From: a virus
Reading direction: 5' to 3' (one strand)
IMG/VR virus record: IMGVR_UViG_3300048591_000595
Location: 1-29,870 of that record
DNA length: 29,870 nucleotides
Shown: positions 391-20,521 of the stretch, piece by piece
Position numbering within the stretch: position 1 is the first letter of the stretch
Layout: the number at the start of each line of letters is the position of its first letter
The notes under the pieces: model-generated
Database searches by the model: none
Told to the model about the DNA's origin: nothing
The model's input: only the letters and a program-made list of their open reading frames with translations
Position numbers and translations under genes: made by a program

Positions 391-792
391 TTATTCAATC
401 AAACCGATGTCCTTTTTTTTCTGCCGAATCGGTGCTTTGACAGATTCTTTGTATTCCTCATATTCGATACGATCTGGATGATCGGCAGCAAGATCGCGCA
501 TCTTCAATTCTTTACCGGTACTGTATCTGTCCGCTATCCTAGTTTCGATGATCGAGTCTAGGTCTTTCATCATTTTGCAGTCTCTTAGAATATGTTCTAT
601 TTCGAGGTAAGTTAACTGGGAAATCTCTAGCTCAGCAGGTTGCGAAGAAATGAATGAGGCAATATCTTCCGTCTCGACACCGTGATATTCATAGTTAGAA
701 TCGCGATGATAATTATAAGTTTTTAGTGATTCAGTTTGTCTTAGGCTTATGCAAACCGGGAGTTCAATCTTATTAGTGCGTAAGTAATACAT
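391..792 (-). CDS. Unknown protein encoded directly downstream of the DGR reverse transcriptase (133 aa)
   Basis: The product is not recognised. It is a soluble, charged protein with no membrane segment or signal peptide. Its C-terminal third is Lys/Glu/Arg-rich (I-E-Y-E-E-Y-K then I-R-Q-K-K-K), and the middle is predicted helical. The ATG at 792 is preceded by AGAGGT at good spacing and overlaps the reverse transcriptase 3' end by 20 bases, so the two are translationally coupled. Position suggests either a DGR accessory factor or a tail-fibre assembly chaperone, since Mu-like phages often place such a chaperone after the fibre gene. Neither role is shown by a motif. It is the last gene before the operon terminator. 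Confidence 0.75.
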   Translation of the reverse strand: MYYLRTNKIELPVCISLRQTESLKTYNYHRDSNYEYHGVETEDIASFISSQPAELEISQLTYLEIEHILRDCKMMKDLDSIIETRIADRYSTGKELKMRDLAADHPDRIEYEEYKESVKAPIRQKKKDIGLIE

Positions 793-1804
793 TATAGACC
801 TCTATTTTATTATTTAACATCCATTTCTTTATAAATTCCCAAAAACTAGGGGCCGCTGTGAGAATTTGTTTTACTACATAGAGCAAAGAATTTGTCATTT
901 TTGCATGTGAAAGATAGGAGCTAATTCTTTGCATATTTGGTTCTTTTTTGAGAGTGCGCTTTATTTTGTATAGGGAACGCTTCCTTATTAAGCGGCTATT
1001 AAACCACGTTTTATAACCCACAAAATCGATGCCTTTGGCTATTAGCCCAAGAAATGTTTTCCCATTTAGCTCAAGCTTCAACCCAGATAACAAATTTTTT
1101 ATTTTTTCTAAAGCATTTTTGAGTTCTAACTTATTTAATGACAATAGTATTAGATCGTCCATGTAACGAATATAATGTCTTATTTTAAGAACTCGTTTAA
1201 TATAATGATCGAGAGGGTTAAGAGCCAAGTTTGCAAGTATTTGCGAGGTTACATTACCTAGTGGCAATCCTTTCCCTCCATCGTTAATGTAGAATTTTCG
1301 CAAAATATTAATAGTTTTTTCACATTTAAGAATTTTTCTCAATTCGATTTCTAAAGAATTTTGATCTACCGAATAGAAAAATTTCCTTATATCAAGCTTT
1401 AGATAATAGCCACCATTCTTGTAACTAATTAAATATTTTTTTAATAAGTCACTGGCATTATGAGTCCCCCTTTCGCGGATGCAGGCGTAGGTTTGTCTGA
1501 TAAATCTCTTTTCGATAGTGTCTCTAATACTATTTAAGATTGCATGTTGTACGATACGATCCTCTAAGTGAGGAGCTTCAATCAGTCTTTCTTTTGGATC
1601 TGTTATATAAAAATTTCTAGTTGGTTTAACTTGATAAGTATCGCTTTCAAGTTGTTCTAAAATTCTATTTAAATTTGGAATTAAATTGCTCTCATATTCC
1701 AATATTTTTGAATGGTATGTTTTATTCTTTCTTACCTCTTTCCACGCCTGCATAAGCGCTTCGATTGTGCACCATTCTTTTTTTAAATTACCAATTCGTT
1801 TCAT
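773..1804 (-). CDS. DGR reverse transcriptase (343 aa)
   Basis: This enzyme copies the TR RNA into adenine-mutagenised cDNA that replaces VR. Motif A is at residues 136-146 (LKLD then F-F-Y-S-V-D) with catalytic D138. The DGR-typical G-L-P-L-G-N-V-T-S-Q is at 179-188, and the catalytic Y-M-D-D at 214-217. The length is normal for DGR reverse transcriptases, which lack an RNase H or maturase domain. The ATG at 1804 has AGGAAA just upstream. The gene lies 146 bases downstream of TR in the same direction, as in the avd-TR-RT order of known DGRs. A group II intron or retron identity is unlikely given the adjacent TR/VR pair and the Avd-like gene. The start and all catalytic motifs are intact, so the element is probably active. 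Confidence 0.96.
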   Translation of the reverse strand: MKRIGNLKKEWCTIEALMQAWKEVRKNKTYHSKILEYESNLIPNLNRILEQLESDTYQVKPTRNFYITDPKERLIEAPHLEDRIVQHAILNSIRDTIEKRFIRQTYACIRERGTHNASDLLKKYLISYKNGGYYLKLDIRKFFYSVDQNSLEIELRKILKCEKTINILRKFYINDGGKGLPLGNVTSQILANLALNPLDHYIKRVLKIRHYIRYMDDLILLSLNKLELKNALEKIKNLLSGLKLELNGKTFLGLIAKGIDFVGYKTWFNSRLIRKRSLYKIKRTLKKEPNMQRISSYLSHAKMTNSLLYVVKQILTAAPSFWEFIKKWMLNNKIEVYNVLLTH

Positions 1805-1810
1805 ATTTTC

Positions 1811-1936
1811 CTATTTGATTAGAATTTCGCAATTGCTACTATAATTATCATTTAGTTGCATTTTTGCCATAATGGCAAGGATAAAGCTCCCTTCGATATT
1901 ATTCATCAATAATCTCATTAAGATTATTGCTTTCAT
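1811..1936 (-). other. TR-to-RT spacer with an optional 41-codon ORF
   Basis: The spacer between TR and the reverse transcriptase contains an open frame starting ATG at 1936 and ending TAG at 1811, just before the reverse transcriptase ribosome site. It has no clear Shine-Dalgarno sequence. In known DGRs this region is part of the structured RNA that primes cDNA synthesis, so I favour RNA function over coding. Confidence 0.35.
1864..1878. other. Palindrome TTGCCAT-A-ATGGCAA in the TR-to-RT spacer
   Basis: A perfect 7-bp inverted repeat with a one-base centre lies 73 bases downstream of TR on the coding strand. It is too tight for an RNA hairpin without opening inner pairs, so it may be a protein site or a DNA cruciform. 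It could also be part of the folded DGR RNA. Confidence 0.5.
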
Positions 1937-1950
1937 TAATTGTTAATCGG

Positions 1951-2065
1951 AGTCGGAGGCGCACGGAAACATTTCTATTGCTATTAGTCCGATTATTATT
2001 CAGATTGACAACCGAAACGCCGCTATTGCTAGTATTATTGAACGAACCGCCAACAAGCGCACACA
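1951..2065 (-). repeat. DGR template repeat (TR)
   Basis: These 115 bases match the VR at 2500-2614 at a constant offset of 549. Read on the minus strand, the TR would encode the same C-A-L-V-G-G-S-F... segment but with AAT (Asn) at every diversified codon: ten AAT codons, eight of them altered in VR. Core differences lie at 1953, 1972, 1978, 1993, 1996, 1999, 2000, 2027, 2034 and 2039. All except 2034 are T on the plus strand, which is A in the template sense. The GC-rich, invariant end (1954-1970) is the expected IMH* segment. TR begins 10 bases after the avd stop codon. Confidence 0.96.
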
Positions 2066-2075
2066 TTTTTAAGCC

Positions 2076-2435
2076 CTACCCTTTGGAACAATCATCATTT
2101 CCTAATTCCCTTCTAATCCACGATCCAATCATTCTTCCAACTTCATCAATTCTTTTCTGAGATTCATTTAGCTTTTTATCATCAATATATTTTAAACTAT
2201 GTGATAAATAGATCAACTGTCTCAGAACTTCATGCTTAACATTCATATCACTGAGCGTTGTCTTTTTATGAAATTTTTTATTAACAGTTACGACGTGTTC
2301 GAATATATCATAACCCAGTTCCCTTATTTTGTTTGCTAATAAATATTTTTCGTGCTTGGGAAATTGTTTCAACATGACATTCACATAAATTATCATGTCC
2401 TGCACTTTCTTTTGTATTAATAGATATTCAGACAC
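2076..2435 (-). CDS. avd: Avd-like DGR accessory variability determinant (119 aa)
   Basis: Avd proteins are small, basic four-helix-bundle subunits that form a ring, bind the reverse transcriptase and DGR RNA, and are required for mutagenic retrohoming. This protein has the family-like N-terminal pattern, an I-Q-K helix followed by K-Q-F-P-K-H-E-K-Y-L-L (residues 23-33) and N-K-I-R-E-L-G, then two further amphipathic helices. Its length is typical. The start is a GTG at 2435 without a strong ribosome site. The next ATG (residue 14) would remove the conserved first helix, so GTG is preferred. It sits between the VR-bearing target gene and TR, the classical position. Confidence 0.9.
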   Translation of the reverse strand: MSEYLLIQKKVQDMIIYVNVMLKQFPKHEKYLLANKIRELGYDIFEHVVTVNKKFHKKTTLSDMNVKHEVLRQLIYLSHSLKYIDDKKLNESQKRIDEVGRMIGSWIRRELGNDDCSKG

Positions 2436-2483
2436 TTTTTTGTTTTTTTATGATTAATTCAATTATGCTCACTATCGTTCGCT

Positions 2484-5213
2484 TCACATCGATACAAGAA
2501 GGCGGAGGCGCACGGAAACAGTTCTACTGCTATTAGTCCGAATAGTAGACAGATTGACAACCGAAACGCCGCTATCGCTAGTCTTATCGAACGAACCGCC
2601 AACAAGCGCACACAGAAGATCTCTTAACCATTTATATAACAAGTCTGTTCCGAATTTATTAGTGCCAGCGCTACTTAATGCGTTTCTATCCTTTGGCATC
2701 TTGCAGGCTGCGAGCTTATAAGAATTGCTAGCTCTATCAGTACTAAAAGGTCTAACTATGTTGCTACCGTTCCCAAATCTGTCTGATGTATATTTGTTTA
2801 TAAGTATGTCTGATAAGTCTATCACATCGAAGTTAGCTGAGCATCCTGCAGCCCCCCAATGATCAGTTGAAATTGATGCACCTGACGTAAAACTGCTATA
2901 ATTATGAGACTCTTTCTCTATGTAGAATGTGCCTTTTGTAGCGGATAATCCACTCCCGTCGTAATCGAGCGAAAGAGCTGCAGTTGAGATATAAGTATCA
3001 TTATCAACTCCATTCGTTCGTCTTTTTAACTTGAATGTGTTTATATCTATTGTTTCTACTGTTGTAAAAAGATATTGAAGTAAACTGTTCCACTCACTCG
3101 TATCAGTTCCTTCAATGAATAAAATATCGCCATTCGCATATCCGTGGCCATTCACAGTGAAAACAGCCTCACTGGCTCTTGTAATCGCTGTTATGCTTTT
3201 AGTAGCGGCTAGGCAAGTAATCCCTGGGGCGATCTTCCATGAATTACCTTGGACATCTGCGATACCGCACAATTGCCCATTGTGCGTTGTCATGGCAAGA
3301 TTATTCGCACTACCGGTTTTCCTTACTTCATTTTTTGCATTCCAGTAGTTATCGTCACAAGCCTGCCATGTTGTTGTAGCATCATTGTAATCGCTCCCAT
3401 AGTTGTTATTCCCCCGAGGAAAATTTTTAATACCCCCGCTATCATACCAAGCACAGTATGTCGCTGAACTAACTGCTTTTGCATGCGCCGCTACTAAAAT
3501 ATCTATTGCGCTCCACGTGAAAATGCTTGCCGTCACAAAATCATTGCCTCTACTTTTCGCGACCGCTAGAGACCCATAATATGCGTCCTGTGGAAATTGT
3601 CCATTGCTTATGCAATTGCTAAACGCTCCACAATACCCGTTTGTAGATGTCCTTTTCATTGCAGGGTCGCTGCCGATAGGATTACCATTTTTTATAGACG
3701 ACGCGACTCCAGTTAATTGTGTTGTTCCTGCCCACGTAACATTAGTTAAGGATGGTTCGTATTTGTCAACAAATATTCCATAAAGAAATTTATTGTTGTT
3801 AATAAATTCGCGGTGAAGTATGAACCCATCGGCAATCGCTGCATCAAGGTTATAATCATATTCTTTGAATGCCTTTATTATAGGATCGCCTTCATTGTCT
3901 AGTTTATAAACAAAAGCTGCAATATAAACCATAATTGAGTTGTCGATGTTACATTTGTAATTCCCATAATTAGCGTTACTTTTTTCATAGGTACCGCTTA
4001 TAGGTTTCATAATCGCAGGTAAAACTTCATTCGGACATATTGATACACCGGCTCCATCCACATTGCCAACCTTTATATCGTTGTACGCTGAAAATCGTGG
4101 ATCCTTTTCAGTTACATATCTATTATCTGCTCCGGGTATGCCGGAGGTCCCCGCTAGCGCATACTTTTGCTCAGTAGTTGGTGAATTAGTATATGCTGTA
4201 TCATAATTAGTCTTTAACGTATCAGTCAGTTCGTTTTTAGTAAGTCCTTTCCCTGCAACTTTATCGACTTTTAGGTCTAGTGCAGTTTGCTGAGCTGTCG
4301 ATACTGGCTTATTAGCGTCCGAAGTATTATTAACATTAGCCAAGCCTACGAATGTCTTATCATGTGTGGTCTGCGAATGATCATAGGCAATTTTGCCTCT
4401 ATCGCCTCTGTAAGCCGTGCCAGATGTCTCACCTAGTGCGAGAGACGATGATATTTCAACATAAGCAGTCCCGGAATAACGATAAACCACATTTGTGTCT
4501 AATGCAACATATATTTTTCCACTTTCACCTGTTACGGGGAAAGCAGCTATATTTGCATATTCAAGTACGTCATCTACGTAAGCAGGGAGCTGCGATGCAG
4601 GCACTTTACCTGCCACTAAATCTGCTTTCAATCCTAAAGCAGTTGCTGCAGCCGAGCTTATAGGCTTGTCCGCATCGGCTGTATTGTCTGCGTTCGCAAG
4701 ACCAACATCGGACTTAGATAATGTTATATCAGAACTAAGTGCTTTCCCGACAACTGTTCTTGTATTAGGCACTGGTGTGTAACCTAAGCTATTCTGCTTA
4801 CCGTTCCATGTTGATTTTTCAGCAGCGGACACTGTAAGCTTGTCTCCGGCATCGAGATTTGAAAGCTTGTTTTTTTCTGCTGTTGTATAATCCTCTTGTG
4901 ATAATTGCTTACCGCTTACTTTATCTACTTTTAAGTCTAATGCAGATTGCTGTGCGGTTGAGACAGGTTTATTAACATCTGAAGTGTTATCAGCATTGCC
5001 GAGACCTATCTGTTCCTTACTAACTGAATGCGGGTTATTAGTACTATCGAGATGCCCCTTTATCGTCCCAACTGTAGTTATATTAGTGCCGTCATCGAGG
5101 GTGCTCTCTACATGCAATTCATCCGTGTAAATTTTTTTCCACTTTTTCGCTGCGGTGCCGATTGTGCGGGCTTCTTTATTTTCATTAGGTACAAAATTTC
5201 TTTTCGACATCAT
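2484..5213 (-). CDS. DGR target: variable tail-fibre protein with C-terminal lectin-like domain (909 aa)
   Basis: This is the probable receptor-binding tip. Residues 1-370 are fibre-like, with three copies of a G-L-x-N-x-(D/N)-N-T-(S/A)-D-x-(N/D)-K-P-(V/I)-S motif near 70, 170 and 290, known from many phage fibres. The C-terminal half (about 390-909) is rich in Trp, Gly, Asn and Cys with G-N-S-W-K-like segments, as in the formylglycine-enzyme/C-type-lectin folds used by DGR targets. VR covers residues 867-905. The diversified residues are D876, K877, D880, S889, T890, I891, S896 and T898. The gene ends five codons after VR. AGGAGG lies 3 bases before the ATG at 5213 and 6 before a second in-frame ATG at 5210; the latter has better spacing. 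Confidence 0.92.
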   Translation of the reverse strand: MMSKRNFVPNENKEARTIGTAAKKWKKIYTDELHVESTLDDGTNITTVGTIKGHLDSTNNPHSVSKEQIGLGNADNTSDVNKPVSTAQQSALDLKVDKVSGKQLSQEDYTTAEKNKLSNLDAGDKLTVSAAEKSTWNGKQNSLGYTPVPNTRTVVGKALSSDITLSKSDVGLANADNTADADKPISSAAATALGLKADLVAGKVPASQLPAYVDDVLEYANIAAFPVTGESGKIYVALDTNVVYRYSGTAYVEISSSLALGETSGTAYRGDRGKIAYDHSQTTHDKTFVGLANVNNTSDANKPVSTAQQTALDLKVDKVAGKGLTKNELTDTLKTNYDTAYTNSPTTEQKYALAGTSGIPGADNRYVTEKDPRFSAYNDIKVGNVDGAGVSICPNEVLPAIMKPISGTYEKSNANYGNYKCNIDNSIMVYIAAFVYKLDNEGDPIIKAFKEYDYNLDAAIADGFILHREFINNNKFLYGIFVDKYEPSLTNVTWAGTTQLTGVASSIKNGNPIGSDPAMKRTSTNGYCGAFSNCISNGQFPQDAYYGSLAVAKSRGNDFVTASIFTWSAIDILVAAHAKAVSSATYCAWYDSGGIKNFPRGNNNYGSDYNDATTTWQACDDNYWNAKNEVRKTGSANNLAMTTHNGQLCGIADVQGNSWKIAPGITCLAATKSITAITRASEAVFTVNGHGYANGDILFIEGTDTSEWNSLLQYLFTTVETIDINTFKLKRRTNGVDNDTYISTAALSLDYDGSGLSATKGTFYIEKESHNYSSFTSGASISTDHWGAAGCSANFDVIDLSDILINKYTSDRFGNGSNIVRPFSTDRASNSYKLAACKMPKDRNALSSAGTNKFGTDLLYKWLRDLLCALVGGSFDKTSDSGVSVVNLSTIRTNSSRTVSVRLRLLVSM
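2500..2614 (-). repeat. DGR variable repeat (VR)
   Basis: This is the 3' coding end of the fibre gene, 115 bases aligned to TR. Substitutions at the AAT codons produce GAT, AAG, GAT, TCT, ACT, ATT, AGT and ACT. The GC-rich segment 2503-2519 is identical to TR and is the candidate IMH. The small changes at 2497, 2499 and 2502 may distinguish IMH from IMH*. Just beyond, arms TATCG (2473-2477) and CGATA (2490-2494) form a weak inverted repeat spanning the stop codon, in the place where other phage DGRs carry a target-recognition hairpin. Confidence 0.95.
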
Positions 5214-5221
5214 TATCCTCC

Positions 5222-5842
5222 TTAATCTTTTATTGTAACATCACCATCTTTATCAATGGTGAAATTATTATCAGCAACAACATTATCATCAATTGTTAGG
5301 TTACCATTTTCATCAATTTTCATAATTCCAAAAACGTCATAAGTGCCTATATATTCTCTAAGCCCAACTTCATTTTCCTGCACACGAATAAATTGCCCGC
5401 TCAAAAAATTATCGGCGAAAATAGGGACTAACCTTTTTGCACTTTCAGGCAAATCAATTCCATTCAAGTTGTTCTGAACGTCAAAGTTAATCTTCAATTC
5501 ACCCTTTGCGATTGTGACAGTTTTTGTTGTGTCAGCTACATCATTGGCAATGACATCATAATACATCTTTGCAATCGTAAAAGACTGACTATCAACATCG
5601 TTTAGGCTTATCTTTATTGTTGTTGCATTGTTTTCGTATGTAGCCGTAAGCTCCTGGTCCCCGCCGCCTGCAAGCGTGTTCCTTTTTCGAATAAGCAGAT
5701 CACCTGTCACTTCCTTGTCTATCTTAACACCGAATGATAACTTGTGCGAACTCCAATCGCCGGGCACTGAAAGCGAAAGGCGGTCTTCTCCAAAGTAAGC
5801 ATCTCCGCGCTCTATTAGAAAATTCACTTTTACAGGTTTCAT
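5222..5842 (-). CDS. Probable baseplate/upper-fibre protein (206 aa)
   Basis: It is predominantly beta. The N-terminal ~100 residues resemble the immunoglobulin-like N-terminal domain of phage BppU/receptor-binding proteins: a short R-G-D segment, then an L-S-L-S-V-P strand and a Y-Y-D-V-I strand near residue 92. This is a pattern impression, not an alignment. The C-terminal end has repeated I-D-x-(N/D)-G-(N/D)-(L/V)-T-I-x-D units typical of fibre shafts. The ATG overlaps the upstream 74-residue gene (ATGA, 5839-5842). It lies between the giant tail hub and the DGR target fibre, so it may anchor the variable fibre to the tail tip. Confidence 0.7.
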   Translation of the reverse strand: MKPVKVNFLIERGDAYFGEDRLSLSVPGDWSSHKLSFGVKIDKEVTGDLLIRKRNTLAGGGDQELTATYENNATTIKISLNDVDSQSFTIAKMYYDVIANDVADTTKTVTIAKGELKINFDVQNNLNGIDLPESAKRLVPIFADNFLSGQFIRVQENEVGLREYIGTYDVFGIMKIDENGNLTIDDNVVADNNFTIDKDGDVTIKD

Positions 5843-6063
5843 TTCTTTTTCTCTTTTTTTGTTTCATCTGCGAATTCGATAAAGCCATGCTCTAAATTTA
5901 GGCTTACAGCTTCCTTGATGTCCTTGCTGTTTTTTTTACAGAACTCTGCAATTACTGAATCCATCTCTTGTTTTAGAAGTTGACCTTGTAATTCTAAATT
6001 ACTTTTTTTTGCTGTAATAGCTTCAAGGTGAAATTTTTCTTCTTTGCTTAAAAATAATTGCAT
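5839..6063 (-). CDS. Small coiled-coil protein (74 aa)
   Basis: It is not recognised. It is a Lys/Glu-rich helical protein without a membrane segment. Residues 5-48 could form a coiled coil (E-E-K-F-H-L then L-E-L-Q-G-Q-L-L-K-Q-E-M). The ATG at 6063 is preceded by GGAGG (sense AATGGAGGTTTATAATG). Its stop overlaps the next start by ATGA, so it is co-translated with the baseplate-like protein. A tail-tip assembly or trimerisation role is possible but unproven. Confidence 0.65.
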   Translation of the reverse strand: MQLFLSKEEKFHLEAITAKKSNLELQGQLLKQEMDSVIAEFCKKNSKDIKEAVSLNLEHGFIEFADETKKEKKK

Positions 6064-6086
6064 TATAAACCTCCATTAAATGATGA

Positions 6087-9000
6087 TTAAGTTGCTATTA
6101 ACCCGTGGGTACGCATTGCTTGTAGGATCGAATTCAGTTTGTTACCAGTATCCGCAAGATTTCCTACCGTGCAGTTTGCAATCGCTGCTTCCTGCTGTCC
6201 GATAATTTTATTAAGTGAATTATTTGAATTGTTTTTTATATAAACGCCTGCATAATTGTTAGTTCCATTCCAATTATTTATCTCAAAGTATTTCACACCC
6301 TCTTCGATTAATTGAAACTTTAATTTGCTGTAAGAATAATTAGCAGAACTTTTTACAGAAGCAATCTTGAAGATTGTATTATGTGTTAAGCTGCCGGGAT
6401 AAGAACCCGTGTCCGTTTCGGTTGCAGAACTAAGGCCAACATAACCCTTATAATTATTAGGTGAAGCCGTTGTGGTTAGTTCAAAGATGCTACTAGTTAA
6501 AAATTTTCCATTAAGAGTAAGCGTATCCGCAGATGTAATATTAAAATCTAGAAACGAGCCATTTTTCTTGCCAATGAATAATTTTGGATTACTTGCATCG
6601 TACACTTCAAATCCGGACGCTGAGAAACTTGTTAAAAAGCTCGTGTTACTTTTTGTTAGTGCAATCCCGGCACTAGAAGTACCCATATAAAACTTATCAC
6701 CATCGAAATTGAAACCACTAATCTGACTAACAAAATCTTCGCTTGGTCCACCATACCCAATATTGACGAGCCACTTGCTGTTAATCGCGTCCCAGATGCT
6801 AAATCCATATCTGCTCGCACCGCCATCATTGTAGCCACCAACCTGAGTTATAATCTTATTCGCTCCAGAGACCTGTACAGTCACATTCAGCCCTGATTGG
6901 TATGAAGCAACCGAAGACCGTAGAGTTGTTATAATTGTCTTTGCTGAATTATTATGAGCTGATTGCAGATAACCGTCCTGAATTGTCCAGCTCCCAACCG
7001 TGCCGGAACTTGAAGTGATTGCACCCAAGAAGCTAGCGTTGCCTAAAGTATCAAGAGTAATAATATTTGTAGCCCCGTACCTTACACGAAACCCATTTGT
7101 AGCGTCTATGGTCAAATTTGTTTTTGAATAATCTCCAACTGCCAGACCAAAAACAGGCGTACTGTATCCATACGTGCCATTCAGATTTCCGAACTGACCA
7201 AGAACATTTTGAGTAGATGCAGGATGCCCGGAGTGCTGTACAACACGCGCATACGGACTATTAGAACCATAAGAACCGTCTATCGCACTTACTTCATATA
7301 CTCCATTCCCTGCAGTACCATAGTCGAGAGCCAACGCACCTTTTGCTATTGTTGTACCGGATGTTGCGCTTCCTGCATTAGGCGCTGCCGAGCGTGTAAA
7401 AATAAACGTTTGTGTCTTGGTAGCATCGTTGCGTGAATTAAAAGTGACTGTTCCCCAGCAGTCTGATACTGTTAGCCCACCTGCCGCACGTGAGATATTT
7501 CTTACTCTTACATAATCGCCATTTTGGAATACCGCCCCGGTGAAACCCGAAAATTCTTCTACGATCAGCACAGTAGAACTACCCGGACTTGGCACTGTAA
7601 AATCTGACGATATTTTCGCAACTGATTTACTTATTATTTGCCCGCCCGCTAAAGCTTGTTCAAGATCGGCAATGAAACTTTTAACGTGCATTTCATTAGC
7701 GTATAAGTATCTAAAATCAGCCGCACCGTCATTCATGATCTTCCAACCAGTCAATTGCTGAGAATACACCTTAGAACCGATCGAGCCTGTAAGATCTAGC
7801 CCGCCGAACTCAGGTACGCTTGTAATAGCAATATCTTGAATCGTGTTTAACAAATTAGAAGTCAATTTCAGATTAGTATTGTTATAGCCAAGACTGATAG
7901 TCCTGTCAGACGTCAGATCCCCGCCGCCCGCAAGAGGATAGGACGTTGCAATGTTTCTATCTGCTCTTACCGAGTGCGATGTAGTAGACGCCTGATTAGT
8001 TAGAGAAACCTGTAAAAAAGAGGGTGCCGAACTCGAACTAATGTCTTGAATTGTATTCAAAGCATTAGAACTATTTTTTAGATTAGTCGCATTAAAATTA
8101 ATATAACCTGCATTTATCGCAGTTGCATTCCAGACACCAGTTGCGAGCGTGCCCACACTTGTTAATACCGAGCCGGTTATACCAGTACCGAGTGAAGACA
8201 TTGTCAATACATTCGCACCATTGATTTGAAAAGAATTGCCACCACTTAAATTCAAATTTTGCGTAAGTGTCCCTAGCTTTTGCAGAGAAGAATTGATAAC
8301 AGAACTTCCGAGCGTATCGGCACTAAGCACACTAGCACTATTGATTTTGAAAACTTTTGTATTAGCAATATTCAGATCGTGCGATAGTGTACCAATCGAA
8401 GTTAAAGAAGAACCTAGAACTGTACTACCTAATGTTGTAGCATTCAAAACGTCTACATTATTTATCTTATAAGATTTACCCGAAGCAATATCAAAATCGA
8501 TGTCCGATGTCCAGCGCCCACCCTTGTACTTTATAGAAGCAAGAGAATTATTAGAAGCACCTAACATAATCACGCCACCGTCAAGCGCAGTAATATCGTC
8601 TCCATTTTTGTTGAGTCTGATAGCATGATCTACTACATCATAATCGACTACATTGATTCTATCAATATTGCCACCTATGTAGATGTCTCCATCCACTTTG
8701 ATATTGCCGGTTACCCAACTATTGCCTGTTACCTTGGACTTAAACACAGTATCGGGCGCACCACCAATACCGATTCTTGCGAACTCGGTCGTGACAGAGG
8801 TCTTCTTAATATTTTGAATTGTATCTAATTTATTTTCAGTTTCTGTTAAGGCAAAATTATCTGTATAATTTAGCTTAATTAGGCCCGTTTCTACAGCAAG
8901 AGGAGGGAACCCTATAAGGGAAACGAGAGAACCACTACCACCGCTAGATGATGAACTTGCGCCAGAACCGCCAATATAATTCGATGCAGAGCGTATTAAA

Positions 9001-10502
9001 CTAACTTGTCTGTAATCATAGTCCTCGCCAAGACACTGCACGAAATCGATGTCTATACTTCTTTTACCACTAAAATCGATATTAAAGTTTTCTATGAAAT
9101 AATATTCACCGTCAAGGACACATCTGTCTAATAGTTCAAAGTCTATATAAGAATCTTTTAAAGTCATTTTACGAGATTTTAATTTGTGTCGTTTCCCATA
9201 AAAATTCATTTTTGAATTAGCGATTGTCATTGCAGCTGCATCTGCAGTTTCTTTGCTAATAACATTCACGTCATTTGTAAGTTGTTCAATTTTCAAAGCG
9301 TTTTTAGGATCACGTCCGCCTTTGCCAATTTTGGCGTAACCCTCTATGTTCACGCCACCAATTAGCAATCCTGTCTTTAGTTTTACTTCAACACCATCAT
9401 TTAATTTATCCCAGAAATCATCATCAGAACCCTCAAGAATATCGTTCTCGTTTATAGTTCTTACCGTGCCAGAGCTGTTCAAATTATTAATTGATTGAAA
9501 AACAATCTGACCTGCTTTATTGCAAAAAATGTATACATCAATAGCTTTAGTAATCCATTTAAGGGATTCAAATGCAGTGCCGCCAAATGGACTAGAATCT
9601 ATCATCTTAGTCCAATACGATGTAGGAAGCGAATAGATCGAGTAATTAGAATTATTAATGAAAGTTATACTTGCCCATTGCTGCCTGATTAAGAGCTTTA
9701 TAATCTTAATCGCATCATAACCGATAATTGAATTGCCGGAATAGATGTTCACATCTTCGCCATACCAATCATTTTTGTAGTAAAAAATTCTATAATCGTG
9801 TTCGTAAAAATTAAAAGGTGTGCATTCGCATTCAAGTACCCACACCGGAGAACTTAAAGGCGTGCTACTCCAATTTACATAGACAGTATAGTTCCAAAAA
9901 GCCGAAGTAATGAGACAAGTACGATTGTCAGTAGCACTAAAATCTTTTAATGAAAGAATAGAACCTGCTTTGAAGCCAAGCGCTGCATTATCGAATTGAA
10001 TTGGTACTGAAGAAGGAGTGTAAGCGATCTGGAACCCGTCAACTTCACCGGGACCATTTGCATAGAGTAAATAATCAGGCGTTATAGCATCATTTTCAAG
10101 ATGCGCTTCTACTCTTGCTGTCTGCGTGTAAAGTAAAGTCAAAGCAGAAAGTTTGTCGAGTACATCGATTGTAATATAGCCCGATTTTAAAGGTCGCTTA
10201 ACAGTCGAGAAATCGCATATCCCTTCAAATACCTTCGTATAAGAGCCGTTTGTTCTTTTAAGCTCTATTTCTACTAAATATTTTTGTTTGCTCGTCAGAG
10301 AGCCGCTAAAAGCGTTATAGACAACATTACCAGTCTTATAAATTAACTGTAGCGATAATTTGTCGAATCCTATCAAACCTGATTCGCCCGGATTGGAAGA
10401 TTCGATCTTTCGTCTTAAAGTCGAGAAAGATTTGAGAACTAATAAATTAGACCAGTCGGTTCGTGCGCCGGAGGGCAAATCTGTGAAATATACCTTTATC
10501 AA
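6087..10502 (-). CDS. Giant tail hub/central fibre protein (1471 aa)
   Basis: It is the first gene after the tape measure, the position of the distal tail/tail-hub genes in siphophages. The N-terminal ~500 residues, with alternating beta segments, look like a combined Dit/Tal (tail-hub) region. A Ser/Gly linker lies near residue 514. Residues ~550-950 hold fibre repeats of two kinds: L-N-T-I-Q-D-I (about three copies) and S-x-L-x-x-(I/L/V)-G-T-L (three copies). The C-terminus ends in a helical segment that could trimerise. It starts with TTG at 10502, overlapping the tape-measure stop (TTGA), so expression probably depends on coupling. No separate Dit gene is seen, which suggests a fused hub-plus-fibre. 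Confidence 0.8.
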   Translation of the reverse strand: MIKVYFTDLPSGARTDWSNLLVLKSFSTLRRKIESSNPGESGLIGFDKLSLQLIYKTGNVVYNAFSGSLTSKQKYLVEIELKRTNGSYTKVFEGICDFSTVKRPLKSGYITIDVLDKLSALTLLYTQTARVEAHLENDAITPDYLLYANGPGEVDGFQIAYTPSSVPIQFDNAALGFKAGSILSLKDFSATDNRTCLITSAFWNYTVYVNWSSTPLSSPVWVLECECTPFNFYEHDYRIFYYKNDWYGEDVNIYSGNSIIGYDAIKIIKLLIRQQWASITFINNSNYSIYSLPTSYWTKMIDSSPFGGTAFESLKWITKAIDVYIFCNKAGQIVFQSINNLNSSGTVRTINENDILEGSDDDFWDKLNDGVEVKLKTGLLIGGVNIEGYAKIGKGGRDPKNALKIEQLTNDVNVISKETADAAAMTIANSKMNFYGKRHKLKSRKMTLKDSYIDFELLDRCVLDGEYYFIENFNIDFSGKRSIDIDFVQCLGEDYDYRQVSLIRSASNYIGGSGASSSSSGGSGSLVSLIGFPPLAVETGLIKLNYTDNFALTETENKLDTIQNIKKTSVTTEFARIGIGGAPDTVFKSKVTGNSWVTGNIKVDGDIYIGGNIDRINVVDYDVVDHAIRLNKNGDDITALDGGVIMLGASNNSLASIKYKGGRWTSDIDFDIASGKSYKINNVDVLNATTLGSTVLGSSLTSIGTLSHDLNIANTKVFKINSASVLSADTLGSSVINSSLQKLGTLTQNLNLSGGNSFQINGANVLTMSSLGTGITGSVLTSVGTLATGVWNATAINAGYINFNATNLKNSSNALNTIQDISSSSAPSFLQVSLTNQASTTSHSVRADRNIATSYPLAGGGDLTSDRTISLGYNNTNLKLTSNLLNTIQDIAITSVPEFGGLDLTGSIGSKVYSQQLTGWKIMNDGAADFRYLYANEMHVKSFIADLEQALAGGQIISKSVAKISSDFTVPSPGSSTVLIVEEFSGFTGAVFQNGDYVRVRNISRAAGGLTVSDCWGTVTFNSRNDATKTQTFIFTRSAAPNAGSATSGTTIAKGALALDYGTAGNGVYEVSAIDGSYGSNSPYARVVQHSGHPASTQNVLGQFGNLNGTYGYSTPVFGLAVGDYSKTNLTIDATNGFRVRYGATNIITLDTLGNASFLGAITSSSGTVGSWTIQDGYLQSAHNNSAKTIITTLRSSVASYQSGLNVTVQVSGANKIITQVGGYNDGGASRYGFSIWDAINSKWLVNIGYGGPSEDFVSQISGFNFDGDKFYMGTSSAGIALTKSNTSFLTSFSASGFEVYDASNPKLFIGKKNGSFLDFNITSADTLTLNGKFLTSSIFELTTTASPNNYKGYVGLSSATETDTGSYPGSLTHNTIFKIASVKSSANYSYSKLKFQLIEEGVKYFEINNWNGTNNYAGVYIKNNSNNSLNKIIGQQEAAIANCTVGNLADTGNKLNSILQAMRTHGLIAT

Positions 10503-12673
10503 AACGCACCGCTCGAAAGTTCTGCCAGCCCAATAGATGTTAAACGCTCTGCAGAATATTTATCAAATACAATCTGATTAGGTCTTTGTTTAATCGCATC
10601 TGCTAAAACTCTTATCTCTTTTACAATCGCTAAATCGTTAAAGCTGTACACATTATTTCTTAAAGAGTTTTCAACTGCCATTTTAGTCTGCGTTACCACC
10701 TGCGCCCAGCCTTGCGCATAGTCCTGCATAGGTGCAATAATCTCGATTCCATTCTCACCTACTACCGTGCCGCCTTTAGCGAAACCTTTCATAGAAGTAT
10801 CAGTAGCGGAAATCTTTGCTACGTTAGCTAAACCTGTAGCTATCGTAGTAGCTGCCAGAATACCTCCGAAAAGAGGACCAGCGCCTACGGGCGGAGGTGC
10901 GAATGCGGCTGTTGCTGCTTTATAAGTTTCTATCAATGTTTGCGAAATACTAAGTGCCTTATAAGCTGCCGTCTGCTTACCAAAAAGATTAGCCGTCATT
11001 CCGAGTGATTGAGTAACTGCATTGATTTCAGTTTCTGCTTTAGCAGCTTCAAATTGTTTCTTCTTTTCTAAAGATTCTTGTTCTAAATCGTTTCGTCTCT
11101 GATCGTATGCCTGCGATAATGCAAGAAGCATCTCTTGAGAGTTTTCAAAAATCGATACCTTTTCTATTTCCTTATCATACCAGATGTCGAGTTCCTGCTG
11201 TGCAGAAAGTTTTAAGTATTCGTTTTTATCTCCAAGAAGTATGTCGTCAAGAGCTTCTGTTTCAGGCATAGAAAAATTATCTTCTGCAAATGTAGGCATT
11301 TCCGGCTTTGGTTCTTTTACTACTTGTTTATTGCTAAGCAATGATGAAAGTCTTTCTTGCTCTTTTAAATTTTTTATATGCTTTTCAGAGCCAGCAATTA
11401 ATAAACCTTCTGCTTCTTGAAGTTCTTTAATTTTTTCTTTTACTTGTGTAACCGTCATTCCCATACCGGCTACAACCTTATCCGCTGCATTCAAATTATC
11501 GAGATGTACTTTTAACCAGTTTGTACTTTCTCCTTTTTTATCTGAAATTTCATCTGCGATGTTTCTTGCGCCAAAACCGGACTTATCCCAGTTCGGGTAG
11601 CTTTTATCAACTGTCTTTCTATGATTGATTACAGCAGTAGCGTTTTCGTTAATATTTCCTGTCATTAAATAAATTGCATAAGCGGCAGCAGTAAGACCTA
11701 GAATTAACCACCCCACCGGACCAAGCGAAAATTCTAAAGCGATTATACTTTTCCCAAGTGCGGCAATAGAAGGAATAAGAGAATTATAAATTGTTGTTGC
11801 AATTCCCATTAAGCCGGTTACTCTTAAAGTTACCGCCACTGCACCAAGAGAAATGAATAGACCAATTACACCGCTTAACACAGGTGAAAGTTGATTCAAA
11901 GCTCCAACTAAACTAGCGATAGCAGATGAAAGAGGTCTTAGACCGTAATCTAAAAGTTCACCAATATTTTCCCTCATATCACCGATTGCATTGTTCATCT
12001 TAGCCATAGCACCTGTCGATGACTCACCCATAGCTATCGCTTGCCCACCAATGCTTTTATTTAGCATCTCGAGTACTTTATTCAAATCACCACTTTTCAA
12101 GACTGTTTCATCTAGTCCTTTCACGTACCGCTTAATCATAGTCGCATCGCCTGCAAAAAGATCACCCATCACACGTGTAGCACCACTTAAATCAGTGCCC
12201 ATAATGGTAGCCAAGTTCGCAGCTTGCAAAGTTGCTTCTTTTGTTTGTTCTACTGTAAGTCCCATCGCCAGGAGCATAGCCATACTGCTTTCAGTAACCT
12301 CATCTCCATAGATAGTTGTAGCTTGCAACTCTGCCGCATATTCTACCAATATGTCAGAATTTTCTTTTGTAAACTGACCTGATTGTTTAAGGGCTGTATT
12401 GAGTTTAACAAGTGCAACTTCTTGTTCCTGATATGCTTTTATTGATTCGCCAAAGTTCTGTTGTAATGTGCCCCATACTTCTTTCACTCCTTGAATAATT
12501 TCACGAGCATTATTGAACCCCTGCGAAATCGAAGTGGTTAAATCCGTAACGTCTTGTTTGCCATACTTGAAACTTTTGTACAGTTCCTTTACATTCTCAT
12601 CTGTAAGGTCAATCGCTGCATTAGCTTCCTTGCCATCAATTATTAATTTTATTTTTATTTCATTCGTAGGCAA
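10499..12673 (-). CDS. Tape measure protein (724 aa)
   Basis: Tape measure proteins set tail length and help DNA ejection. The N-terminal third is long, helical and Ala/Gln-rich. Residues ~250-345 hold two or three hydrophobic segments (including V-G-W-L-I-L-G-L), and charged coiled coils and an Ala/Gly-rich hydrophobic stretch follow. It lies directly after the frameshifted chaperone genes, as in lambda-type tails. The start is TTG at 12673 with AGGGAT upstream; no in-frame ATG occurs for about 130 codons, so the TTG start is well supported. By the usual ~0.15 nm per residue, the tail would be about 110 nm (inference). Confidence 0.9.
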   Translation of the reverse strand: MPTNEIKIKLIIDGKEANAAIDLTDENVKELYKSFKYGKQDVTDLTTSISQGFNNAREIIQGVKEVWGTLQQNFGESIKAYQEQEVALVKLNTALKQSGQFTKENSDILVEYAAELQATTIYGDEVTESSMAMLLAMGLTVEQTKEATLQAANLATIMGTDLSGATRVMGDLFAGDATMIKRYVKGLDETVLKSGDLNKVLEMLNKSIGGQAIAMGESSTGAMAKMNNAIGDMRENIGELLDYGLRPLSSAIASLVGALNQLSPVLSGVIGLFISLGAVAVTLRVTGLMGIATTIYNSLIPSIAALGKSIIALEFSLGPVGWLILGLTAAAYAIYLMTGNINENATAVINHRKTVDKSYPNWDKSGFGARNIADEISDKKGESTNWLKVHLDNLNAADKVVAGMGMTVTQVKEKIKELQEAEGLLIAGSEKHIKNLKEQERLSSLLSNKQVVKEPKPEMPTFAEDNFSMPETEALDDILLGDKNEYLKLSAQQELDIWYDKEIEKVSIFENSQEMLLALSQAYDQRRNDLEQESLEKKKQFEAAKAETEINAVTQSLGMTANLFGKQTAAYKALSISQTLIETYKAATAAFAPPPVGAGPLFGGILAATTIATGLANVAKISATDTSMKGFAKGGTVVGENGIEIIAPMQDYAQGWAQVVTQTKMAVENSLRNNVYSFNDLAIVKEIRVLADAIKQRPNQIVFDKYSAERLTSIGLAELSSGAF

Positions 12674-12683
12674 AATCAGATCC

Positions 12684-12983
12684 CTAATTTTTATTCATTG
12701 CTTTTAACTGCTCTAAATCTGTCTTCATTTTGTTCAAATCATTTATTTTTTTTACATAGTACCAATCACTTACAAGCGTTGCTATTGTGCCCTCGATCAA
12801 TCCTATCTTGCTAATATCGCCGTCTGCAATTTCATAAAGCACGTAATCAAAATTTTCAACTTCACTTTTAAGATATGAGACATTGATTTTACTCAATACC
12901 TTTATTTCATTTGCTACTGCTTTTGTTTCTTCATTGAGTCTATTAAATCGCTCTGCATTTCTTTCATCGAATTGACTTTTCTT
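12684..12983 (-). CDS. Minus-one-frame extension of the tail assembly chaperone (gpT-like; 99 aa)
   Basis: This frame is open from just upstream of the slippery site to 12684 and lies exactly in the -1 frame of the upstream chaperone gene. Its only plausible independent start is a TTG at 12896 with badly spaced AAAGG (two bases away). After frameshifting at T-TTT-TTA, translation continues as K-K-S-Q-F-D-E-R... and yields an 84 + 99 = 183-residue fusion. The distal part is helical (L-K-S-E-V-E then M-K-T-D-L-E-Q-L-K). By analogy with lambda gpGT, the fused form would bind the tape measure and recruit tail tube subunits. It ends 10 bases before the tape-measure start. Confidence 0.85.
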   Translation of the reverse strand, partial: KKSQFDERNAERFNRLNEETKAVANEIKVLSKINVSYLKSEVENFDYVLYEIADGDISKIGLIEGTIATLVSDWYYVKKINDLNKMKTDLEQLKAMNKN

Positions 12984-13234
12984 AAAAAAAAATCTTTAAC
13001 AATTTCGAGAGTTTGTTTTTCAGTCGCATCATCAAAAAAATCAATATTCTGTTCGCTCTCATTATTTACGTCAATCAGGACTATTTGTAGAAATTTTTTG
13101 ATAGCATCTTCGTTGTCAAATTCAGCATTGAGATTAGAACCAAGCCCGGAGACTTTCAATAAATTGTTTACCTGCCGAGATTCTTTTATAGTAAGGTCTT
13201 TTAATCCAAATGTTTTGCCGTTTATCGTGTACAT
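12914..13234 (-). CDS. Tail assembly chaperone, short form (gpG-like; 106 aa)
   Basis: It lies between the tail tube and tape-measure genes, the conserved place of the lambda gpG/gpGT-type pair. I choose the ATG at 13234, which overlaps the tail-tube stop as TGATG and has AAGGTAGG upstream, rather than the ATG at 13252 inside the tube gene. The product is acidic and helical. Residues 81-84 (D-F-F-L) are encoded over the slippery run. Most ribosomes should finish here; a fraction should shift into the -1 frame. Confidence 0.85.
   Translation of the reverse strand: MYTINGKTFGLKDLTIKESRQVNNLLKVSGLGSNLNAEFDNEDAIKKFLQIVLIDVNNESEQNIDFFDDATEKQTLEIVKDFFLRKVNSMKEMQSDLIDSMKKQKQ
12983..12989 (-). promoter_or_regulatory. 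Programmed -1 frameshift site T-TTT-TTA
   Basis: A nine-base T run in the coding strand (12984-12992) contains the classical X-XXY-YYZ heptamer T-TTT-TTA in the zero frame (codons TTT TTA, residues 83-84). The -1 frame has a TAA just before the run and stays open for 99 codons after it. Transcriptional slippage on T9 is an alternative route to the same fusion. Confidence 0.85.
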
Positions 13235-14187
13235 CAATAACCTACCTTGCATGTACCGCCGTCAGCTCCATTATCTGCTGCACCGCCGCCTTTATCCGCT
13301 CCAAATAAGAAATCAAATTCATAGATAGAGACATCGCCGCCTAATGTTAGTTTTAAGTTTCTGTCCGTATCAGATATTTCAGGTTCTTCTATTACATGCA
13401 AGACGCCTGAATTAAAATCGAAAGAATCACAAAAAGAGGAATTATTGCCAAATTTAAGAAGCAGAGATTCATTAATATTTTTGTTCAGTCTTTCCATTAT
13501 CTTTGTTATTGAACCGTCCTTGCCAATTACTTCAAACTTAACCTCAATTCGATCTACTAAAGTCTGACCGAAAAGATTTTCGTTATCTTTTGTTTTTAAA
13601 CTAAAAGTAAAACTTGTTAATTCTTTGGCATTAAATAGTACAGTTGCGGAAGGCGATTCTGCAGTCATAAGTCTAAATCTTCTTGTCTTAGTTGTATTTT
13701 CTCCGCCCGGTTGTGTTATGCCGCTTATTGTTACTGCTGTATTAGTCGAAGATGCGTTTATGATTGTCTTTACTGTATCATAGTCGCCAGCTCCTTTTAA
13801 AGTCTCTTTAATCGTTCTTTTATCAGCGTTTATTGAATATTCAAAACCAAGCCCCAATAAAAGTCCTGCCTGTGCAAATTTGAAAACATCTTCACTGCCA
13901 GATGTGATTGATTGCTTAGCAGTCATCAGCTGCGCATCCATATTCAAATTTAGATAGCCGAAATTTGCTTTGAGTGCTAACATTGTCGATTGCATAGTTT
14001 CATATTCTAATGTCGCTTGTAACATATTCCTAAATTGCCGATTCAGATAATCTTTTGGTGCTTTGTATGGTACGAAAGTTAATTTTGCTTCGTTTCTAAA
14101 ACCTGCATATACAGGATTAGTAGGAGTAGTTTCTAAAGTACCAGCATCGCATTTCAAGATCGATTTTATTCCCGGTGTTGAAATCAT
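13234..14187 (-). CDS. Major tail (tube) protein (317 aa)
   Basis: It is assigned by position (immediately before the chaperone frameshift pair and tape measure) and by composition: a beta-rich soluble protein with no signal peptide or coiled coil. It has an Ala/Gly/Asp-rich C-terminal tail (G-A-D-K-G-G-G-A-A-D) that could be flexible on the tube surface. No sheath gene accompanies it, which fits a non-contractile tail. The ATG at 14187 has AGAGGTAATAAA upstream. No sequence motif is diagnostic, so this is positional inference. Confidence 0.75.
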   Translation of the reverse strand: MISTPGIKSILKCDAGTLETTPTNPVYAGFRNEAKLTFVPYKAPKDYLNRQFRNMLQATLEYETMQSTMLALKANFGYLNLNMDAQLMTAKQSITSGSEDVFKFAQAGLLLGLGFEYSINADKRTIKETLKGAGDYDTVKTIINASSTNTAVTISGITQPGGENTTKTRRFRLMTAESPSATVLFNAKELTSFTFSLKTKDNENLFGQTLVDRIEVKFEVIGKDGSITKIMERLNKNINESLLLKFGNNSSFCDSFDFNSGVLHVIEEPEISDTDRNLKLTLGGDVSIYEFDFLFGADKGGGAADNGADGGTCKVGY

Positions 14188-18309: not shown

Positions 18310-18787
18310 AATATCAAAATCAGAAATAAGCAAGTCTATTGCCCTTTATAAATTAGAAAATCCTGAATCTTCAATTAGTGATATTGCTAAGAAATTCAAG
18401 GTCAAGGATCATGTAGCGAGATATGCAATAGATAAGTATGCAGAAGACACTCAGTTTTTGAAGTTGAATAAAAAATCTAAAATACGAGCTTCTCGGATTA
18501 TAGCAGATATTTCTTCAGATACAGAGCTTCTTAGGAAACAATTAAGTTTCGTCATAGCGCAGCTTGAAACAAACGATAGTATGCCTCTTACAGCAAGAGT
18601 TGAGTTCTTAACTCGAATTATTCGCATCAAGGTTCAACTCAGCAATATCGAACTTCAAAATCATCTTAAAAAAGCAGACGCAACGATAATCGCCGCAATA
18701 ATCAAAAGATTTTTGCCTGATGCAACCAATGAGGATATTATAAAAATCTATAACGAAGAACTCATAAAATCCAAAAACGAGGATTAA
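18296..18787 (+). CDS. Small terminase subunit (163 aa)
   Basis: The N-terminal ~50 residues carry a helix-turn-helix (S-S-I-S-D-I-A-K-K-F-K-V, then H-V-A-R-Y-A-I-D). The rest is helical and probably oligomerises. The second half resembles the region Mu gp27-type (DUF3486) proteins use before the large terminase. It would bind phage ends (pac) for headful packaging from the left end. The ATG at 18296 overlaps the preceding gene. Confidence 0.75.
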   Translation: MKQNEISKSEISKSIALYKLENPESSISDIAKKFKVKDHVARYAIDKYAEDTQFLKLNKKSKIRASRIIADISSDTELLRKQLSFVIAQLETNDSMPLTARVEFLTRIIRIKVQLSNIELQNHLKKADATIIAAIIKRFLPDATNEDIIKIYNEELIKSKNED

Positions 18788-18925
18788 ATGAGTACCGCTC
18801 ACGATTTAATACCCTTTAAAAACCGTTTAATGGCGTTCAGGATTAATTATCTCGTCCAAATAGGTAGTTTCACCTGCATCACGAATTTAAGAGCCGTTAA
18901 AAACGATTTTCAGGAGAATCCATAA
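18788..18925 (+). CDS. Small unknown protein between the terminase genes (45 aa)
   Basis: This short ORF starts with ATG directly after the small-terminase stop (TAA-ATG) and ends TAA directly before the large-terminase ATG. GAGG lies five bases before its start. An open frame filling the gap exactly, with a good ribosome site, argues that it is real. It starts M-S-T-A-H-D-L-I-P and ends D-F-Q-E-N-P. It is not recognised. Its DNA also holds two copies of a TTTAA-centred motif shared with the element's left end. Confidence 0.6.
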   Translation: MSTAHDLIPFKNRLMAFRINYLVQIGSFTCITNLRAVKNDFQENP

Positions 18926-20521
18926 ATGGAAAATTTCAGCCAAATCGATTTTACTTTTATCAATTTTTTAAAGCAGGCAGAAGAGGAAAAGCTACAAAAA
19001 GAAAAAGAGGAAAGGAGTAAACAATTTCTTCCTTTCCCTGAAAACGAAAGAAGCGAAACTTCTATATCAAATCGCGTTAGGAAATCATTGAAAGATTTTT
19101 GGTTTTTCGATAAGACCTATTTCCCTAAAGAGCTCTATGGAGAATATTTTGAGCCGAATCGTATGTTAAAAAGTATCGTAAAACTTTCAGAAATTCCCGG
19201 ATTTCACTTAGTACTCGGTCCAAGAAAGCACGGCAAAACTGTACTTGCAAAAAAATTAATGATCTGGAAGTTATTAACTAATCGTTCAAAAGTTGCCGGC
19301 ATTTACGCCGAGACTCTTACTAAAAGCTCTGCAATTCTTAAAGATATATTCACTTTGATTTTCACTAACGAATATATCATGCACGATTGGAAAGCAAATT
19401 TCTCAGAAGCCAATAGTAACCAAGTCGCTTTTAAAATTGACTTGCCTCTTGAGTTTTCAGAACTCAATAAGACGTCTCGATTCTGCGCTGCATTTTCGGA
19501 AGGAAGATCGGTAAGAGGTTATATCCGCTTATTTGGAAGACCTGAGTTCATCATCGGCGATGACATAGAAACTTTAGAATCTTCGTTCACTCCTGCATCA
19601 GTCAATCTAAGAAACGATAAATTGATGGAGGCATTTCACTCGCTTTCCGATAACGGTATATTCTTATCGTTAGGTAATGATTTCAATAATTCCTCTTTTA
19701 TGCACAAATTTAGACTTGATGCAGAGCAGGGACTACTGCACAAAAATTATACAGTCCAAGTTTTCAAAGCGTGGCAACACAATCAGCCTCTTTGGCATCA
19801 GAGATGGAAAGCCAAAACAGAAAATGAATTACGTTCTATTATAGCACCGAAAAGTGAATCAGACTGGCAAGGTAACTACCAGCAAAACCCGATTCCGCCG
19901 GAAGGTTTTTTCTTTTTGCAACAACACTACATCGAATATTCATCGTTACCTAATGATTTAAGAGCTGTAATTTATTGCGACCCTAATCTTTCCAAGAAAG
20001 GGAAAGGTGATACTACTGCAATAACTACTCTAGCATATTCTCCAAAAACGAATATCTATTATATACTTAATTCAATATGTAGAAGTTTCAGCGATGCTAA
20101 TCTGTTATTAGATACACTACTTAAACTCAAAAACGAAACTAAGAATGTCTATGCTATCGGATTCGATGGAAACGTTGCGCAAGAAAGCACGTGGACTCAG
20201 TTCGTAAGGAATTGGTGTGTAATTAATAAATCTGCTTTCCCTGTTATCGAATACAAAAGTTATCGAGTAAATGATCTTGCAAAAAATGTTCAGCTCGTTT
20301 ATTCAGAAAATAGAATTCAATTCCCTGTAAATTTTGCAAAATCACAAGACGGTGAAAATTACTTAAGCCAAATATTCGCATTTACTGGACAGAAAAAAGG
20401 TTCATTGGACGATGCCCCCGATTCACTTATTTGTGCATTTGAATTTTTGCATGAAAGAAAATTAGCAAGAAATTCTTTTCAGCCAATAAAAACAATTAAA
20501 GATTATTATTCAATTATGTAG
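18926..20521 (+). CDS. Large terminase subunit, Mu gp28-like (531 aa)
   Basis: This is the packaging motor ATPase plus nuclease. The Walker A-like motif G-P-R-K-H-G-K-T is at 98-105, and Walker B F-I-I-G-D-D-I-E at 208-215. The RNase H-fold nuclease has acidic residues at D352 (C-D-P), D414 (G-F-D-G) and D495/D496/D499 (L-D-D-A-P-D). Its length is normal. The ATG at 18926 has AGGAG upstream inside the 45-codon gene. It forms a unit with the small terminase and portal. In transposable phages packaging starts near the left element end and takes flanking host DNA. Confidence 0.93.
   Translation: MENFSQIDFTFINFLKQAEEEKLQKEKEERSKQFLPFPENERSETSISNRVRKSLKDFWFFDKTYFPKELYGEYFEPNRMLKSIVKLSEIPGFHLVLGPRKHGKTVLAKKLMIWKLLTNRSKVAGIYAETLTKSSAILKDIFTLIFTNEYIMHDWKANFSEANSNQVAFKIDLPLEFSELNKTSRFCAAFSEGRSVRGYIRLFGRPEFIIGDDIETLESSFTPASVNLRNDKLMEAFHSLSDNGIFLSLGNDFNNSSFMHKFRLDAEQGLLHKNYTVQVFKAWQHNQPLWHQRWKAKTENELRSIIAPKSESDWQGNYQQNPIPPEGFFFLQQHYIEYSSLPNDLRAVIYCDPNLSKKGKGDTTAITTLAYSPKTNIYYILNSICRSFSDANLLLDTLLKLKNETKNVYAIGFDGNVAQESTWTQFVRNWCVINKSAFPVIEYKSYRVNDLAKNVQLVYSENRIQFPVNFAKSQDGENYLSQIFAFTGQKKGSLDDAPDSLICAFEFLHERKLARNSFQPIKTIKDYYSIM

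Follow-up and report, generated by a model that had tools for sequence, protein, structure and literature searches.

Our analysis of a 29,870-base viral contig (IMGVR_UViG_3300048591_000595, analysed over its full length and hereafter the window) indicates that a Mu-like phage, seen so far in metagenomes alone, very probably produces both a short and a long tail chaperone from one gene, through a ribosomal -1 slip on T-TTT-TTT / T-TTT-TTA. One Mu-like lineage to which it belongs is likely to have kept this chaperone fusion while swapping the direction of the shift, -1 on T-TTT-TTN and +1 on TTT-CGN at the same Phe codons, with the direction set by the base preceding Phe and the codon following it. 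An uncultured Mu-like phage group thereby gains a confident tail chaperone annotation of a kind that ordinary gene calling would overlook, and eighteen related sites (seventeen independent; eleven -1 and seven +1) form a natural experiment on what sets frameshift direction. Tail chaperone frameshifting of the -1 type has long been known in other phages; the exchange of direction at the same codons would be worth specialist testing, and the literature that we searched, short of a full survey, held no report of such an exchange within one lineage.

Overlapping frames at the slippery site

The site lies near the 3' end of a 106-codon ORF on the minus strand, where the following features were read:

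12914..13234, minus strand: 0-frame ORF, putative tail assembly chaperone with a lambda gpG-like role (ATG 13234, TAG 12914, 106 aa)
12996..12998, minus strand: TAA that ends the -1 frame shortly before the T run (frame reading)
12986..12992, minus strand: second, overlapping heptamer T-TTT-TTT (direct sequence reading)
12983..12989, minus strand: slippery heptamer T-TTT-TTA in the 0 frame (direct sequence scan)
12684..12983, minus strand: -1 frame extension, putative lambda T-like domain (99 codons and a stop)

The initial annotation had placed a programmed -1 frameshift here, and its coordinates, frames and product lengths (106 and 183 residues) all proved correct on direct reading, as did its claim that the -1 frame is open from T-TTT-TTA, with the heptamer at 12989..12983 in the 0 frame. 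The codons at the site are GAT TTT TTT TTA AGA; nine T's at 12992..12984 are followed by an A at 12983, and the two heptamers together make GA-T9-A. The -1 frame is open over 12995..12684, opening one codon before the T9A run (12992..12983), and because the TAA at 12998..12996 closes this frame, a slip would have to take place at or after the T run. The predicted fusion after a -1 slip has 84 + 99 = 183 residues. An ATG at 13252, upstream of the chaperone ORF start, would extend the short product to 112 aa. The T9A string alone is unremarkable, with one copy in the window against 1.9 expected in shuffled windows; in-frame T-TTT-TTN, by comparison, was found twice within the 27-codon overlap, where the codon rate of the contig itself predicts 0.017.

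The majority of ribosomes would complete the 106-aa short chaperone, and a minority would slip back one base at T-TTT-TTT / T-TTT-TTA and continue into the 183-aa fusion. By analogy with lambda, the short form may coat the tape measure protein, as gpG does, and the extension may recruit tube subunits in the manner of gpGT. The sequences show the overlap and its motif, the conservation of both and of the -1 domain, and the lack of start codons in the downstream frame of some relatives; the slip itself, its occurrence at the ribosome, its rate and these chaperone roles are what we infer.

Relatives with a -1 overlap

Searches of viral contigs with the chaperone, the -1 domain, the tape measure gene or the tube gene alone returned G001 (IMGVR_UViG_3300050333_000126) as the sole relative. 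Further relatives were gathered through a terminase search and a terminase DNA motif, filtered for Mu portal matches, and in the filtered records the genes preceding the tape measure gene were read for overlapping pairs. ORF pairs were chosen by geometry first and their motifs inspected afterwards, with the exceptions of G002, G004 and G005 (the first +1 phages, found by inspection), G006 (found via a profile of the first protein) and G012 (picked out by its T run and its downstream domain). All compared sequences are metagenomic or viral contigs, and in several fragmentary relatives no chaperone pair was identified.

The search of relatives for a conserved overlap, proposed with the initial annotation, was favourable. 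Eleven distinct Mu-like phages, the window included, carry the -1 overlap, and in-frame T-TTT-TTN is present in all eleven overlaps (0.24 expected in total). Their sites read as follows:

Window: GAT TTT TTT TTA, -1
G001: GAT TTT TTT TTA, -1
G006: GAT TTT TTT TTC, -1
G007: GAT TTT TTT TCG, -1
G010 (near copy: G011): GAT TTT TTT TTG, -1
G012: GGT TTT TTT TTA, -1
G017: GAT TTT TTC AAC, -1
G018: CTT TTT TTA TTG, -1
G019: GAT TTT TTT TCT, -1
G021: GAT TTT TTT ACC, -1
G028: TCT TTT TTT TTA, -1

This conservation of both overlap and motif supports, at the level of sequence, the reading of the pair as a tail chaperone with programmed -1 frameshifting. The closest comparison is with G001, which is 36% identical over the fusion and has an identical GA-T9-A in the same overlap. 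A chaperone-like ORF with an overlapping candidate -1 ORF was also seen in G029 (contig 18432-19103), yet no slippery heptamer accompanies it, which makes G029 an exception to the pattern.

The long T run might instead cause slippage of RNA polymerase, which by adding a U in T9 (giving T10) would move the downstream frame by -1 and yield a nearly identical protein. This explanation would be consistent with the T9 found in six of the eleven -1 phages, a credible length for such slippage (PMC1088944), and with the lack of a stable RNA structure downstream of the site that could act as a stimulator (z 0.23 in the window and -0.69 in G001). In many bacterial genomes, selection against slippage also starts to show at runs of nine A or T (PMC1088944). 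However, the remaining runs are of eight T's in two phages, seven in two and six in one, and G017 (T6C), G018 and G021 (T7) still have in-frame T-TTT-TTN and the same -1 overlap. A gene expressed by transcriptional slippage on T9 should have a run of roughly nine A or T in every member, whereas 6, 7, 7, 8 and 8 were counted in five of the eleven. The T run is moreover kept in phase with the codons, which would be unnecessary for a polymerase, and in the +1 relatives described below the longest T run in the overlap is at most six. Since run length varies from 6 to 9 and T-TTT-TTN is invariant, slippage by the ribosome is favoured, and polymerase slippage appears improbable. The junction peptide DFFLK would arise solely from a ribosomal slip at T-TTT-TTA, and would therefore separate the two processes.

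A much less likely explanation, one that we consider very doubtful, is that the two frames encode separate proteins, with translation of the -1 frame beginning independently, at TTG 12896 or by reinitiation, and no fusion being made. The assertion that the downstream frame lacks a usable start was accurate for the domain as a whole, as no start codon in the window could yield all of it, but too strong if taken literally, given a TTG at 12896, 30 codons past the site and the first in the frame, and an ATG at codon 86. That TTG would open a 70-aa ORF, and thus a partial product, and in G001 an ATG stands in frame 21 codons beyond the site, both of which would suit separate translation. Against this, start positions vary among the relatives, with the first downstream-frame start 30-63 codons past the site in the window, G010, G018, G021 and G028, and the -1-frame residues FDE and NE.T, conserved between the window and G001, are encoded ahead of every possible start. 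In G012 and G019 not a single ATG, GTG or TTG is present in the downstream frame, in line with the initial reading of a frame that is entered by slippage.

Homopolymers are also where a sequencing or assembly indel could have split one normal ORF, and the T9 run is the longest homopolymer of the window, in a record that is a virus contig without isolate support. Such an artefact can be practically dismissed: eleven distinct contigs, with runs of 6 to 9, share the position of the frame break, and in G017 the run is only T6C.

Both parts of the fusion are conserved as protein families. Leave-one-out HMMs built from the relatives find the window's chaperone, the first part (E 1.2e-4), and its -1 domain (E 5.4e-6); several more divergent members were not recovered by such profiles. 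The -1 domain also matches phrog_32652, a family of unknown function (E 2.4e-4), and the chaperone has no match in Pfam and none to a PHROG of known function. The AlphaFold models are confident (pLDDT 86.7 for the first part, and 85.1). With the first part as query, the best of 350,542 PDB chains was the HK97 tail assembly chaperone 2ob9, a weak match (E 1.1, probability 0.15), and weak matches in BFVD, a set of predicted viral structures, include several named tail assembly chaperones. The modelled resemblance to 2ob9 may be taken as a hint of a shared fold and not as proof.

Relatives with a +1 overlap and the direction of the shift

In seven further phages the corresponding second ORF lies in the +1 frame, and in-frame TTT-CGN occurs in all seven overlaps (0.14 expected in total). 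G016 and G033 are near copies, and six +1 phages are hence independent:

G002: CAA TTT TTT CGT, +1
G005: GAA TTT TTT CGC, +1
G020: AAA TTT TTT CGT, +1
G034: AAA TTT TTT CGC, +1
G004: TCC TTT CGA, +1
G016 and G033: TAC TTT CGC, +1

A +1 slip could proceed by re-pairing of the P-site tRNA-Phe from UUU to UUC, which is possible at all seven sites. A -2 shift was considered for this group and rejected, as TCC-TTT-CGA in G004 and TAC-TTT-CGC in G016 and G033 offer no -2 re-pairing and the UUU to UUC move fits all seven. Among the +1 phages, the AT-rich ones use CGN codons sparingly, mostly at 2-8 per 1000; this scarcity does not extend to G016 and G033. The flanks of the Phe codons differ consistently with direction: a T precedes the Phe codon in all -1 members, and in all +1 members an A or C stands before the Phe codon or codons and CGN after. 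Entry of the +1 relatives into the corresponding ORF would make most sense if it is the fusion that counts.

The evidence for a change of direction within one lineage centres on G017, a -1 phage whose downstream domain is, judged by sequence, a clear homologue of the domain in the +1 phages: a profile of this domain made from the +1 phages alone finds it with E 1e-7. In the chaperone tree, too, G017 falls among +1 phages (support 93), and in the terminase tree it groups with two of them, G004 and G020 (SH-aLRT 89). With its -1 site and a domain homologous to that of +1 phages, G017 suggests that shift direction changed within this family. The terminase tree needs four direction changes, of which at least two are forced by well-supported branches. 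Profile-profile comparison of the whole -1 set with the whole +1 set gave no significant match, and homology across directions therefore rests on G017 and on gene position. For the window type of chaperone, sequence similarity to the +1 type is weak, and their correspondence is indicated by where the genes lie, by the Phe-Phe site that both have and by the common phage backbone.

Gene neighbourhood and comparable systems

The chaperone pair is flanked by two further genes:

13234..14187, minus strand: candidate tail tube gene, directly upstream, 317 aa (assigned by position only)
10499..12673, minus strand: tail tape measure gene, the next gene after the pair (match to phrog_27166, tail length tape measure, E 6.3e-15)

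The location between tube and tape measure genes, as originally described, thus holds on the tape measure side, and on the other side the gene is tube-like by position: it has no family match in Pfam or PHROG, and a 26% identical homologue in G001. The phage itself is Mu-like, with a MuA-type transposase, a MuB-like AAA protein and a Mu portal all matched (DDE_2, E 2e-13; phrog_310, E 3.5e-75; AAA_22, E 1.3e-18; Portal_Mu, E 1.5e-24); HTH_Tnp_Mu_2 of Pfam was also matched in the transposase. A terminase-like gene at 18926-20521 defines a Mu-like phage group with no counterpart among 50,697 phage records, where the terminase search gave no match at E 1e-10. Likewise, tblastn against phage records with the fusion, two downstream domains and the terminase returned no match, and scans of genome collections with the chaperone and terminase alignments found nothing.

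Tail chaperones frameshifted by -1 are classic in lambda and widespread (PMC5009743). The window resembles lambda G / G-T in having the pair directly before the tape measure gene, a short product with a predicted -1 extended product, and a slippery heptamer late in the first ORF. It differs in its site, T-TTT-TTA being another sequence than lambda's, in a chaperone with no sequence match to a known chaperone family, and in having no evident RNA stimulator. P2-type E / E+E' is similar in that a -1 shift occurs in a tail gene preceding the tape measure gene, although the group described here is Mu-like. The P2 frameshift site is also a T-TTT-TTN heptamer. Frameshift efficiency in P2 and its relatives is given as 2-3 times higher (PMC5009743).

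Phage Mu is reported to shift by -2 in its tail region (Xu et al. 2004, cited in PMC2628397). The window shares with Mu the transposase type, Portal_Mu and a change of frame ahead of the tape measure gene, but the predicted shift is -1 in the window and +1 in relatives. For +1 shifting, UUU_CGU frameshifting is reported for PA-X in the title of ref. 125 in PMC5009743, and TTT-CGN is present in all seven +1 relatives; here the genes are putative phage tail chaperones, and the TTT-CGN site is absent from the window itself. HSTV-2 probably uses a +1 shift (PMC5009743), and annotated phage tail chaperones include some that shift forward (PMC10885494).

The window also contains a diversity-generating retroelement (391-5213), with a reverse transcriptase at 773-1804 (RVT_1, E 6.5e-22), a template repeat at 1951-2065 and a variable repeat at 2500-2614, the latter inside a 909-aa gene (2484-5213). 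Nine of the ten differences between the two repeats fall on template adenines. In G001 (2748-6466) the same cassette separates the tube-like gene from the chaperone, unlike in the window, where it is far downstream of the tape measure gene. In G003, from a different metagenome, proteins are identical to those of G001 across the shared part; this contig starts near the retroelement target gene and continues at its right end into some 20 kb of genes that match nothing in the compared phages and are perhaps host DNA.

Bacteroides phage Bacuni_F1 has, at 5290-5942 and ahead of its tape measure gene, two overlapping ORFs that are annotated as separate 'hypothetical proteins'. The second ORF is in the -1 frame and the overlap ends GAA GAA AAA AAA AGT TAG, and from these features the pair looks like another frameshifted chaperone pair.
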